NCBI GenBank assembly: GCA_022760355.1
Contig: JALEGB010000137.1
Coordinates: 1-64,000 of the forward strand
Direction of reading: 5' to 3'
DNA: 64,000 bases
Origin: Neomegalonema sp.
GTDB taxonomy: Bacteria; Pseudomonadota; Alphaproteobacteria; Rhodobacterales; Rhodobacteraceae
A model generated the notes under the pieces. The model was not told the origin of the DNA. It worked only from the letters and a program-made list of their open reading frames with translations, and did not search any database. Position 1 is the stretch's first letter. Each line of letters starts with the position of its first letter. Positions 2,003-7,442 of this stretch are shown here, in pieces. A program made the position numbers and the translations under genes.

Positions 2003-3775
2003 CTACTCAAGCAGACTGCGCGCGACCCGAAAACCGACCGAGCTGGATTTTGACGTCCGCGCGAGCCCTGCGCGCCAGGCGCTGCGAATGTTGCCCGGAA
2101 AGGAGGTCCAGCCGCCGCCACGGATAATCGCCGCCTTTGGCCGGTCACAGCCGCCGAGCCGGGCGCCGCCATCTGTTGGGGCGCCCTTATGGCTGCTGTG
2201 GGCGCAGTCTGCGACCCATTCATTGACGTTGCCGATCATGTCGAACAGGCCCCAGCCGTTTGGCTTCAGGGAGGCGACGGGCCCGGTGTGCGCGAAGCCG
2301 TCCGCGCAATCGAGGAAGATCCATTTCGAGTAGCGCGCATGGGCGGTTTCGTCCGACACGTTCGCATAGGGGCAGCCTGCCGGGGCCGGATGCCCCCAAG
2401 GGTAGCGCGTTGTCGTCCCCGCCCGCGCGGCGTACTCCCATTCCGCTTCGGTCGGCAGCCGATACTGCGCGCCGGTGCTGCGGGAGAGCCACGCGGCGTA
2501 GGCCTGGGCGTCGCGCCACGAGATGCAGGTGACGGGATGAGCGTCCGTTTGCGCGAAGCCCGGAGAGTCCCATGTCGCCGTCGGGCTTTCGCGATGCGAT
2601 CCGTCGACGACAATCCAGCACCCTGGACCGGTTTTGCGCTTGGTCGCCGCGACAAAACGCCGATATTGCCCGACCGTGATTTCCGTGCGCCCGATTGCGA
2701 AGCTCTTCAACCGAACGCGATGCTGAGGCTCCTCACGCCGGCGTTTGAGCGTCTCGGTCTTTGGCGCGCCCATCAGATACGCGCCGCCGGCGATCGCGAC
2801 CATCTCCGGGCATCCTGCGCATTCCGTCGCGCCGGCGCGGCCAGCTGCGCGCAGGCGCGCTTCGAACGTCGCCCCAGCGTCTGGGCGCGGCGCAGGCGGC
2901 GGCGCAGCAGGCTCCGCTAGGGGGGCTGATGTCGCGGCGCCGGCCAGATAGTAGTTGCGCGCCCCGCGCTGGCTCTGATGATCCGGCGCCTGGCTGCGGC
3001 GCGTCGCCGTCAGCACGGCCGAGCGCACCCGACGGAAGGCTTCGTCAATCTCAATCCCCGGCGTCGGCAAGATTTTGAGCAAAGCGGCGGTGTAGGGGCT
3101 GTTGCGCGCGCGCCCGTCCTCCGCCGTTTTGCCGGCCGCGGTGGCGTAGGCGATCAGCGCGTCGCGGGTCTCGGCCGCCTTTGGAAAACGGGCCAACCCG
3201 CGCTCCAGCCCGGCGGAGCGCGCAAGCCGCGGCTCGCCGCCGGCCAGATAGGACACCATCCCGCTATCCCGGCAGGCGTCGAGGATCACCAGCCGAAGGC
3301 CCGCCACCCCCCGCAGATGGCTCATCAACTCAGAGACGGAGACCGCGTCGCGCCGCAGGTCGGACAGCGCCCGTGGATCCGCGTCGACGCCGAACAGATA
3401 GCTTTCCCCTTGCGACTGAATGGCGTGGCCGGCGAAAAACACCGCGGCGATTTCAACCCGTTTTTTGCGCAGCGCCGCGCGAAACCGGCGCAGCTGCGCC
3501 ACCATGTCTCGGGTGGAAAGATCGAGATGCAACGTCGTCTCGAAGCCGAGGCCTCTGAGCGTGCGGGCGATGTCCGTCGCGTCATTGGTCGGGTTGGGCA
3601 GGCGCGGGAGATGCGCGCTCTCATAGGCGCCGTTGCCGATTACAATCGCTAATCGCGCCGGCTTTTCCGCGCGCGCCGGCGCGACCCATAGAGCAAGCAG
3701 CGCTGCTGTGAGGGCGACCCCCGCCCAACACCATAACTTCACCTCGGTGCGCATCATCGCCTCCTTCCCGACCAT
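2003..3775 (-). CDS. Secreted caspase-like (C14) protease fused to formylglycine-generating-enzyme-like (SUMF1/FGE) domain
   Basis: Signal peptide (ALWVAPARA); caspase fold LAIVIGNGAYE, catalytic FFAGHAIQ and LDACRDSG; FGE domain MVAIAGGAYLMGAP...YRLPTEAEWEYAARAG...GNVNEWVADC...RGGGWTS...VGFRVAR. Confidence 0.9.
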   Translation of the reverse strand: MVGKEAMMRTEVKLWCWAGVALTAALLALWVAPARAEKPARLAIVIGNGAYESAHLPRLPNPTNDATDIARTLRGLGFETTLHLDLSTRDMVAQLRRFRAALRKKRVEIAAVFFAGHAIQSQGESYLFGVDADPRALSDLRRDAVSVSELMSHLRGVAGLRLVILDACRDSGMVSYLAGGEPRLARSAGLERGLARFPKAAETRDALIAYATAAGKTAEDGRARNSPYTAALLKILPTPGIEIDEAFRRVRSAVLTATRRSQAPDHQSQRGARNYYLAGAATSAPLAEPAAPPPAPRPDAGATFEARLRAAGRAGATECAGCPEMVAIAGGAYLMGAPKTETLKRRREEPQHRVRLKSFAIGRTEITVGQYRRFVAATKRKTGPGCWIVVDGSHRESPTATWDSPGFAQTDAHPVTCISWRDAQAYAAWLSRSTGAQYRLPTEAEWEYAARAGTTTRYPWGHPAPAGCPYANVSDETAHARYSKWIFLDCADGFAHTGPVASLKPNGWGLFDMIGNVNEWVADCAHSSHKGAPTDGGARLGGCDRPKAAIIRGGGWTSFPGNIRSAWRAGLARTSKSSSVGFRVARSLLE

Positions 3776-3875
3776 CGAATCTAGTCTTTACTCTATCGGT
3801 CTGTGCGGCGGAGAGTGCTGAATTACGAAGGGCGGGGCGATGCGGAGCCGCGCCCGCAATTGGAGGGGAAGTGGA

Positions 3876-5081
3876 ATGCCAAATCCGCTTGCGATGCCGT
3901 TCGCGCAGCATATCGCGCATCTGCTCAATAAGCGTGACGATGATGGATTGGTGCGGATCAACCCTTGGCGGCTGTTTCTTAGGCTGGAGCAAACGCTGCT
4001 CCGGGGGCGCGGCGGGGGCTATGTGTTGAAGCTCGTCGGCCTGCGGACCATGGGGCTGAACCCAGATCGCATGAGCGATCGGGAAGACGGCGTCGCCCGG
4101 TGGTTCGACGCGGTCATGGAGCGGCCGCTGGAGATCCATTCCTCGCGCGACCGGCATAAGGCGCATGATCTGCTGGAGGCGCTCGTCCGGCGCAGTCCCG
4201 AATTTGGGCCGGCGCGATTGGAGCGGCGCCCGAGCGACTCCGCGGCCGCCGCGCAGGGCCCGGCGCAAGGGCTGTATGCGCGGCTGGCCCAGTTTGAGAA
4301 GCGCGCGCCCGATCCCGCGGTGGGACGGCGCGGCGCGGCGCTGCGGCGAGAGCAGGGCCCCTTGATGCTGATCATCGGCGACGCCGCCGCCCCGACGCCC
4401 GAGACGCTGTCGGTTTGGTCGGCGCTGAGCCTCATTCCCAGCGTGATGCGCCCGCTGGAAGGCGACGAAGCGTTGGCTTTTTCCTATTTGATGATCCAAC
4501 TTATTGAGACGGCGGATGAGCGATGGAATTCGATTCGCCGTCTGGGGCTCTCGCCCCCGGAATGGATTGAGGATCTCTCGATCAATCGCGCCCGCGATGT
4601 CGGCATACTCATGAGCGCCGCCGGCCCGAGGCCGGACCAAGACGCTCTGGCGGCGGCGTGGCGACGCGTTCCGGTGCCGGGGTTTGACGATCTCGACGCC
4701 TTCTTCGCGTCCGACATCGGCCGGGCGATGTGCGCGCCAGTCGGCGGCGGGCCGCGGTTTGAACCGCTTGACGAAGCGCCGGAGCCCCGTGCGCCGATCG
4801 CGGACAAGCAGGCGACGAAGGAAGAGATGTTGGACGCGATCGAGCTCTTTCGTGCGCGGGGCCGCATCGATCCGTTTGACCTCGATCTCCTCGCCGCTGT
4901 CGCGGAGGGGGCGAACCTGACGGCGCTTTGGCGTCGGCCGAACATTCGGGCGCGTTTCGACAACAAGGCGGCGTTCGTCGCGCATACCGACAAGGTGAGT
5001 CAGGCGCTGATCCGCGAGGTGCGAGAGATCGAAGCGGAGCGCGCCTTGTCTGCTGAGGGGGAGGTGAGAGAGGTCACATGA
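3876..5081 (+). CDS. Uncharacterised protein (about 401 aa), first gene of operon divergent from caspase-FGE
   Basis: Long ORF; start chosen at ATG 3876 because ggagggg precedes it (track start is 3840); no family recognised. Confidence 0.75.
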   Translation: MPNPLAMPFAQHIAHLLNKRDDDGLVRINPWRLFLRLEQTLLRGRGGGYVLKLVGLRTMGLNPDRMSDREDGVARWFDAVMERPLEIHSSRDRHKAHDLLEALVRRSPEFGPARLERRPSDSAAAAQGPAQGLYARLAQFEKRAPDPAVGRRGAALRREQGPLMLIIGDAAAPTPETLSVWSALSLIPSVMRPLEGDEALAFSYLMIQLIETADERWNSIRRLGLSPPEWIEDLSINRARDVGILMSAAGPRPDQDALAAAWRRVPVPGFDDLDAFFASDIGRAMCAPVGGGPRFEPLDEAPEPRAPIADKQATKEEMLDAIELFRARGRIDPFDLDLLAAVAEGANLTALWRRPNIRARFDNKAAFVAHTDKVSQALIREVREIEAERALSAEGEVREVT

Positions 5082-5539
5082 GTACGCCAACGGATGATAG
5101 TGACGCGCGCGATGCGCTCAGACGGGCGAGCGACGCCCTTCGCATTAGGCTTGCGCGCCTGGGCGATGAGCTCAGCGACGAACCGGGCGAGGCTGAGCCA
5201 GCGCCGATCGTGACCCGGATCAAGTTCGCTTCTCTGGCTGCTGATATCGGCCAAGTGCGGGAGCTTCCTGAAAAGAGGGTTAATCCGGGCGACCCCGCCA
5301 TCGAAGTGCGCTTCGCAAAATCGTTCGACGGCGTGACGGTGGATCTGCAGGCGCTGGGGCTGCCGGCGTTGCGGCGCCTCGGTGGGCGCAAGGCGCGATT
5401 TATCAGCGCCGATATGTCGGTCGATTACGCGTTTCGGTTTGATCCGCGCGGCCGAGCCCGGCTGTTGCTGTCCGCAAACACCGCCGTCGTTGGGAGCCTG
5501 GCTGACGGGTTTCATATCGATTTCGTTGAGGCCCCATGA
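5078..5539 (+). CDS. Uncharacterised 153 aa protein
   Basis: ATGA overlap with preceding and following ORFs, consistent with translational coupling. Confidence 0.75.
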   Translation: MSTPTDDSDARDALRRASDALRIRLARLGDELSDEPGEAEPAPIVTRIKFASLAADIGQVRELPEKRVNPGDPAIEVRFAKSFDGVTVDLQALGLPALRRLGGRKARFISADMSVDYAFRFDPRGRARLLLSANTAVVGSLADGFHIDFVEAP

Positions 5540-6888
5540 GCGCGGTCGAGCCGTCGCCGATCGCGCTGGTTTTGCTGGCGGGAGACGGTGGGCGTGTCGG
5601 CGTTGTCGAAGCTGGGCCGCCCCGCGGAGACAAGCGTTCTGAGGCTGTTGATCCGGCGCTGCAGGATCTGCTCGATTGCGGACTCTATTCGGCGGGGAGG
5701 GTCGCGCGCGCAGCGGCGCGGCGCTTGGCGGCGCTGTCAATGGCGAAAGGGCGTCTGCTGCGTCCTGCGCCGGTCGATACCGTGTTGACGCCTGCGGTCG
5801 ATAAAGAATTCGACGGGCTGGATGAGGCCAACAGCGCCAGCGCCGAACTTGGCCTCGCCCTGGCGATCCTCATGCGTCAACATCGATGTCGGCGCCAGGT
5901 GGTTGCGGCGACGGGCGCGCTGTCCGAAGGCGGGCCAAGCGACGCCGATTTCGCCGCAATTCCAATCAAGGCGGTGGCGGGTGTCGATGAAAAGCTCGCC
6001 GCGCTCGGGCGTTTCTTAGAGGAGCATCGCGGCGGGCCTTGGTCCGACGGGTTGGTCTTGGCGACTCCTGCGCTCTCGATGGATGGGCGGCCGTTCTTGG
6101 AGGCCCATGCCGGGGCTGTCGCCTCACTCGAGGCTGCGGCGAAGGCCGTCGGATCATCTGTTGTCGTCGCGCCGGCGCGGTCGCTGAATGAGGCGGTTAA
6201 GCGTCTGGGGCCGCGGCCGGCTTCGCATCCCAAGGAGTGGTTGGCGCGGTTGGGGCTGGGCTTTGGCGTCCTTTGCGGCGCGATGGCGCTGACGGTGGCG
6301 ATATGGCTGTCACAGCCGACCGATCTTCGATTTGGCGCGCTGAAGGGCCCTGGCGGCGCTGAGGCGACGACGCCATTGCGAACCGCATATAACCATTTGG
6401 ACGGCGATGGCGCAGCGTTGCCCGAATGTCGAGGGCGCGATGGCGTGCTGCGGGTCGGCTGGGGCGAAGAGTTGACGGTTCTGGCGGAAATCGGTCCGAC
6501 GACCGCGCCGGCTCAGGCCTATGAGGGGATAATCGTCGGGGTGACCGAGGATGGCGACGCCAAGCTGTATCCGGCGGCGCTGTTGCCGCCCGAGGGGAGG
6601 TTGGCGCGCGGTGGCGACGGGGTGGTGCGCTTCGGCGGTCGGATCCCGATCACCCCGCCGCCGCGCGGGGATGGCGATCGCCAGCTCAAGTTATTCGTGC
6701 TCGCCCGTAAATTGCGGCGGTACGATTATAAACAGATCGAAGCAGAGCTGCGCGATGCGATGGCCGCGGCGCCGAAGGACGGCCGGCTCAACGCCGCCAG
6801 CCGCGTTATCGCAGATGTGAGCGGCGCGTCGCTAGAAGCCGTGATTGTCGCCACGCCAAGGGTCGAAGGTTGCGTCATGGTGCGCTAA
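5536..6888 (+). CDS. Lon (S16)-fold protease-like protein with central TM helix and DUF4384-like extracytoplasmic region
   Basis: NSASAELGLALAIL / VVAATGALS / IPIKAVAGVDEKLAAL / VVVAPARSLNEAVKRL follow Lon proteolytic-domain order; TM WLARLGLGFGVLCGAMALTVAIWL. Confidence 0.6.
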   Translation: MSAVEPSPIALVLLAGDGGRVGVVEAGPPRGDKRSEAVDPALQDLLDCGLYSAGRVARAAARRLAALSMAKGRLLRPAPVDTVLTPAVDKEFDGLDEANSASAELGLALAILMRQHRCRRQVVAATGALSEGGPSDADFAAIPIKAVAGVDEKLAALGRFLEEHRGGPWSDGLVLATPALSMDGRPFLEAHAGAVASLEAAAKAVGSSVVVAPARSLNEAVKRLGPRPASHPKEWLARLGLGFGVLCGAMALTVAIWLSQPTDLRFGALKGPGGAEATTPLRTAYNHLDGDGAALPECRGRDGVLRVGWGEELTVLAEIGPTTAPAQAYEGIIVGVTEDGDAKLYPAALLPPEGRLARGGDGVVRFGGRIPITPPPRGDGDRQLKLFVLARKLRRYDYKQIEAELRDAMAAAPKDGRLNAASRVIADVSGASLEAVIVATPRVEGCVMVR

Positions 6889-6968: not shown

Positions 6969-7442
6969 ATGAAGGGATGGCGGGTCGCGATTGCGGCTGG
7001 TGTGGCGTTGGCGGCGTTGGGCGCGCCGGCGACGGCCTGCGGGTGGCGTTTGATCATCAAGGCTGATGGCGAGAAAAAGGTGCATGCGTTGCGGGCGATC
7101 ACGGCGATCACGGTGCCCAGCGGCGGCCGTTTGTTTGCCCGGCCGCCGCGAGCGGCGTTCCTCTTGGCCGCGCTCGAGGCCGCCGACGCGCCGCGAAAAC
7201 TGAAGGTGTTGCCGATCGGCGCGTCCCTTTCCGGCCGGGACGTGGCGCCAGGCGGGCGGTTGCACTTGGTCAGCAGCGGCGTTGCGCTCGACATCAGCCC
7301 GCGCGAGATCCGCTTGGCGGAGGGGCAAGCGCTTGAAAGCTGGTTCTTCGCCGGCAGTCGACAGTTCGGCGAAGCGCCGCGACGGCCCAAACTCAGCGCG
7401 AAGAAGACGGTGCGGGTTTGCGTCGTCGAATTTAGAGGATAG
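6969..7442 (+). CDS. Uncharacterised secreted protein
   Basis: ATG 6969 gives signal peptide MKGWRVAIAAGVALAALGAPATAC; in-frame part of ORF 6870-7442. Confidence 0.6.
   Translation: MKGWRVAIAAGVALAALGAPATACGWRLIIKADGEKKVHALRAITAITVPSGGRLFARPPRAAFLLAALEAADAPRKLKVLPIGASLSGRDVAPGGRLHLVSSGVALDISPREIRLAEGQALESWFFAGSRQFGEAPRRPKLSAKKTVRVCVVEFRG

Follow-up and report, generated by a model that had tools for sequence, protein, structure and literature searches.

A Lon (S16)-like membrane protein without an AAA+ domain encoded near caspase genes in Neomegalonema sp.

Described Lon-type proteases and the Lon-like gene

Lon proteases (MEROPS S16; LonA, LonB, and LonC; Pfam PF05362, Lon_C) share the order of their core segments with the Lon-like protein described here. 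In both, a Ser followed by Ala lies at a helix start, and an ATG-type strand, a GGxxxK-type lysine, and a terminal strand-helix of the form IxPVxxVxEVL are present. Compared with Lon, the Lon-like protein is without AAA+, has a longer hairpin before the lysine, and has an N-terminal third that cannot be aligned; its transmembrane (TM) helix and an extra domain lie after the protease domain, not before it. A stand-alone S16 serine protease from a Lysinibacillus plasmid (WP_263082545.1) is likewise without AAA+ and divergent in its N-terminal part. However, this 214-aa protein has a good Lon_C score (Pfam E value of 6e-12), unlike the Lon-like protein, and shows neither a C-terminal TM helix or extra domain nor a caspase neighbor in the stretch seen. 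At that locus (L172:643-1287, annotated as stand-alone S16), only the C-terminal half of the protein matches Lon_C, and the gene is closely followed by one for an AAA family ATPase. Two further loci (L070 and L071) carry ORFs of 687-688 aa with Lon_C matches; their products resemble BrxL-type BREX proteins whose C-terminal domain is Lon-like.

In CalpL, the type III CRISPR Lon protease, the Lon-type domain acts as a signal-triggered protease (PMC11417357, PMC12751052). As in the Lon-like protein, this domain is without an AAA+ motor, and in CalpL it is used in signaling. CalpL also has a SAVED domain and a cA4 response, for which no counterpart was found at the Lon-like locus: Pfam and PADLOC detected no SAVED domain in the Lon-like protein or its neighbors. 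For bacterial caspases (metacaspases), both gene clusters (PMC3501461) and peptidase cascades (PMC7159879) have been described, in which, as in the genomes studied here, caspases occur with FGE-sulfatase, Sel1, or DUF4384 domains and several caspase genes may share an operon. Lon is not mentioned in the main text of PMC7159879, and open papers searched for Lon-like proteins with caspases and DUF4384 yielded nothing relevant and no described Lon-like caspase partner.

Here, a window of 64,000 nucleotides from Neomegalonema sp. was analyzed, in which the Lon-like gene lies in a compact operon with three other ORFs, termed A, B, and D (Table 1). The analysis yielded S16 homology, conserved dyad residues, a conserved A-B-Lon-D operon, and an association with caspase genes. 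Taken as a whole, the locus is somewhat better explained than not by an S16-derived, motor-free, membrane-anchored signaling protease within a caspase-linked module. Such a protein would add to the S16 superfamily a form that is tethered to the membrane, has no motor, and escapes current libraries.

TABLE 1 Coordinates of the features at the Lon-like locus (window positions)
Feature	Position	Strand	Basis
Secreted caspase (C14) fused to FGE-sulfatase	2003..3775	-	Pfam C14 E 9e-35, FGE E 5e-61
ORF A, 413 aa, conserved cytoplasmic partner	3840..5081	+	Homolog G393:C320:9585-10814, E 6e-25
ORF B, 153 aa, conserved cytoplasmic partner	5078..5539	+	ATGA overlap on both sides
Lon-like (S16-related) membrane protein	5536..6888	+	ORF, 450 aa; one 469-aa homolog
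S16-like core, residues 93-224	5812..6207	+	hhalign vs diverse S16 profile, E 7.4e-7, 0/200 shuffles
Ser102, candidate nucleophile	5839..5841	+	Codon AGC; aligns with GPSAG Ser; Ser114 in homolog
Lys153, candidate general base	5992..5994	+	Codon AAG; aligns with last residue of GGxxxK; Lys165 in homolog
Predicted single TM helix, residues 240-258	6253..6309	+	Best 19-residue hydropathy window 1.97; basic residues precede
C-terminal domain (~190 aa), probably periplasmic, conserved Cys 298, 446	6310..6885	+	No family match
ORF D, 157 aa, predicted secreted, ATG 6969	6969..7442	+	Signal-like N-terminus; two Cys

The start codon of the Lon-like ORF is ATG 5536. A sequence-only reading had located this codon, Ser102, Lys153, and the TM helix correctly but ended the feature at 6315, whereas the ORF continues to 6888 (450 aa). 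Its statement that no AAA+ domain precedes the Lon-like domain also held, as the ORF contains neither AAA+ nor any other Pfam domain. The protein had no match in Pfam, NCBIfam, PADLOC, or PHROGs, it fell below the gathering score of Pfam Lon_C with no match even at an E value of 10, and comparison with PDB sequences gave nothing beyond noise. Single-sequence scans were blind to the S16 relationship.

Profile evidence for S16 homology

The N-terminal domains of the Lon-like protein and its sole homolog were combined in a two-sequence profile and compared by hhalign with a diverse S16 profile of 38 sequences, comprising LonA and LonB, LonC-type, viral Lon, and stand-alone S16 domains. The comparison gave a score of 49.6 with a probability of 91.8 and an E value of 7.4e-7, which, like those of the other S16 comparisons, holds for one comparison, about eight S16 profile variants having been tried. 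None of 200 column shuffles scored as high (best, 24.0). The domain sequences used in the profile for Lon of E. coli and LonB of A. fulgidus proved right or nearly so when matched to PDB chains. With a LonA-only profile, the register was right at an E value of about 0.09, and 7 of 100 shuffles scored as high (P of about 0.07); addition of two archaeal LonB sequences brought the E value to 0.017, with no shuffle of 160 as high. Thus, a LonA-only profile was not enough, and significance required the LonB, LonC, and viral S16 domains as well. Control pairs made from ORFs A, B, and D and from the C-terminal half of the Lon-like protein scored 10 to 15, which is noise. When an HMM of the diverse S16 profile was run over 1500 ORFs, the homolog ranked first (E value of 2e-4), ahead of the window protein in second place (E value of 0.19).

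The signal came from two separate regions, as residues 93-162 (E value of 7.7e-7) and residues 160-233 (E value of 0.029) were each matched to the diverse profile with none of 80 shuffles as high. The segment order proposed from the letters, NSASAELGLALAIL / VVAATGALS / IPIKAVAGVDEK / VVVAPARSLNEAVKRL, is therefore above chance. The N-terminal resemblance to Lon that had been proposed along with it (VGVVEAG...LQDLLDCGLYSAGR) is not, because 56 of 80 shuffles of residues 1-98 scored as high and the first ~90 residues cannot be aligned above chance. AlphaFold2 models built on the two-sequence alignment were of low confidence, with a mean pLDDT of about 43 when the window protein was placed first and about 37 when the homolog was. 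Foldseek with the first model gave no meaningful match; FlaH, MITD1, lumazine synthase, and others were returned but disregarded.

A coincidence of motifs in an unrelated alpha/beta fold would accord with the absent Pfam match, the LonA-only result, the unmatched N-terminal third, and the failure of AlphaFold2 and Foldseek to return Lon, but it is very improbable given the diverse-profile score against its shuffles, the two-region signal, the first rank of the homolog, and the partner-gene controls at noise, while the structure models carry too little confidence to weigh against S16. On the profile evidence, which bears out the divergent Lon (S16)-like domain first proposed, the Lon-like protein is a distant member of the S16 superfamily, with homology well supported for residues 93-224 only. 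It does not qualify as a Lon protease of the LonA, LonB, or LonC kind, since tests found neither an AAA+ domain nor the Lon serine signature.

Candidate dyad and membrane topology

The dyad had been proposed as Ser102 or Ser100 with Lys153. The alignment supports Ser102 with Lys153, which occupy the positions of the Lon dyad; Ser100, also conserved in the homolog, aligns two positions earlier. The Lon dyads, Ser679/Lys722 in E. coli and Ser509/Lys552 in A. fulgidus, have a Ser-to-Lys distance of 43 in both proteins, so the catalytic lysine is the last residue of GGxxxK. The corresponding spacing in the Lon-like protein is 51, because the hairpin ahead of the lysine carries an insertion. In the two-protein alignment, Ser102 and Lys153 lie within the most conserved stretches, NSxSAELGLALA and AVxGxDxK. 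The serine signature (NSASAE in the window protein, NSESAE in the homolog) departs from DGPSAG, and the PROSITE pattern DG[PD]SA[GS] is absent from both. As two members of the family are known, dyad conservation is a comparison of n = 2.

The eroded serine signature would suit an inactive Lon-fold domain that serves as a binding or oligomerization module, as in RadA, and so forms a noncutting transmembrane signal relay. RadA-type domains show that the Lon fold can persist without catalysis, and those in the S16 alignment have neither dyad residue. Here, however, both dyad residues and their neighborhoods were kept between two proteins that are only 33-38% identical; an inactive domain appears the less likely reading. 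The kept residues argue for proteolytic activity, which we consider the rather more probable state of the domain.

Basic residues lie ahead of the TM segment in both the window protein and the homolog, and beyond this helix both contain exactly two Cys, at matching positions. Both the charge bias and these conserved Cys fit an N-in/C-out orientation with an oxidized periplasmic domain. The Lon-like domain is thus very likely cytoplasmic, and the C-terminal periplasmic domain is probably disulfide bonded. A by-eye likeness of the C-terminal domain to DUF4384 was rejected, as hhalign scores against the caspase C termini of both genomes were within the shuffle range.

Operon, caspase neighborhood, and proposed role

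The sole homolog (G393:C320:11290-12699; 469 aa, with 33% identity along its full length) is encoded on contig JAHQVS010000035.1 of a Rhodobacteraceae MAG. The gene order A, B, Lon-like, D is preserved on this contig, where B and the Lon-like gene, and likewise the Lon-like gene and D, overlap by 4 bases. In the window, ATGA overlaps join the A stop to the B start (5078-5081) and the B stop to the Lon-like start (5536-5539). The two Cys of ORF D are also present at aligned positions in its homolog. ORFs A, B, and D had no match in Pfam, NCBIfam, or PADLOC, none of the five proteins of the locus matched the PADLOC anti-phage defense models, and no sequence-related structures were found for A and B. 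A weak, unexplained PHROGs match was seen for ORF B (phrog_30387; E value of 0.006), with none for A and D.

Protein and profile searches of about 1,190 family, class, and phylum genomes (overlapping draws) gave no further Lon-like homolog, pattern scans over a collection of 85,462 species returned this one homolog only, and in a plasmid collection neither the Lon-like protein nor ORF A, which is equally rare, had a homolog. Weak genome matches with E values of 1e-3 to 1 (DXS, an acyl-CoA ligase, a response regulator, and HtrA) look like chance. No divergent Lon-like paralogs were found beside the other caspases of the two genomes. The family is thus very rare, having been seen in two genera, which limits the breadth of the finding.

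The operon and caspase context go beyond what the sequence-only reading had seen. In the window, the caspase-FGE gene starts 65 bp from A, divergently on the opposite strand, and its product has a signal-like N terminus and both caspase dyad motifs, AGH and DAC. In the homolog genome, an OmpA gene, caspase 1, and caspase 2 (with DUF4384) lie directly 5' of A-B-Lon-D; both caspases are secreted and encoded on the operon's strand, with a gap of 47 bp to A. D is followed, after about 3.3 kb, by the start of a caspase-Sel1 gene, so that 3 of the 8 caspase genes of this genome lie no more than about 3.3 kb from the operon. In the window genome, contig C41 carries a cluster of genes orthologous to those for OmpA, caspase 1, and caspase 2, at 31-33% identity; the two genomes thus have the same OmpA-casp1-casp2 and operon set, joined in the homolog genome and split in the window genome. 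Of 397 family genomes, 15 encode relatives of caspase 1, and the caspase 1 loci inspected in 13 other genomes had no A, B, Lon-like gene, or D nearby, which makes the Lon-like operon an occasional, nonobligatory partner.

These bare loci would also be expected if the caspase link were incidental and the operon worked alone among genes that are merely common there. Caspase genes are indeed numerous (14 in the window genome and 8 in the homolog genome), and the window caspase is of a different type, an FGE fusion, on the other strand. An incidental link keeps an appreciable, though the smaller, share of the probability, as it leaves unaccounted for the two caspase genes directly upstream on the same strand in the homolog genome, the 3 of 8 caspase genes near the operon, the 65-bp distance in the window, and the OmpA-casp1-casp2 set common to both genomes.

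With the caspase link taken as functional, the locus suggests a rare, undescribed protease signaling module. The periplasmic domain, perhaps together with secreted D and the secreted caspases as candidate upstream factors, might sense an envelope event. Once the periplasmic part was engaged, the cytoplasmic Lon-like domain would, by analogy with CalpL, make limited, ATP-independent cuts. Its most plausible targets would be the proteins of ORF A, ORF B, or both, which are the first candidate substrates or regulators because A and B are translationally coupled to the Lon-like gene. The signaling role and the substrates are tentative proposals. A full proteolytic relay through the inner membrane, in which secreted caspases and a periplasmic sensor control a motor-free Lon-type Ser-Lys protease that processes two dedicated cytoplasmic partners in a caspase-to-Lon cascade, is decidedly more doubtful. 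As ORFs A, B, and D are ready candidate substrates or regulators, the idea can be tested directly. Bacterial caspase gene clusters, about whose physiological pathways little is known, would thereby be connected with a Lon-type protease.

Several features of the caspase genes were observed in addition. Fourteen caspase genes are unusually many for a genome of 3.9 Mb, and fusions similar to the caspase-FGE-sulfatase of the window occur at several other places in the window genome (L086, L087, L090, and L091). Contig C41 (G000:C41; L083 8268-15290, minus strand) carries four consecutive caspase genes and the OmpA gene. The C-terminal domain of caspase 1 (L083:12811-13515, minus strand; L017:7188-7907) is at most marginally DUF4384-like (Pfam E value of 0.23); it has conserved FNLANxGEVQ and PFGxDHVV motifs and was found in 15 of 397 family genomes.
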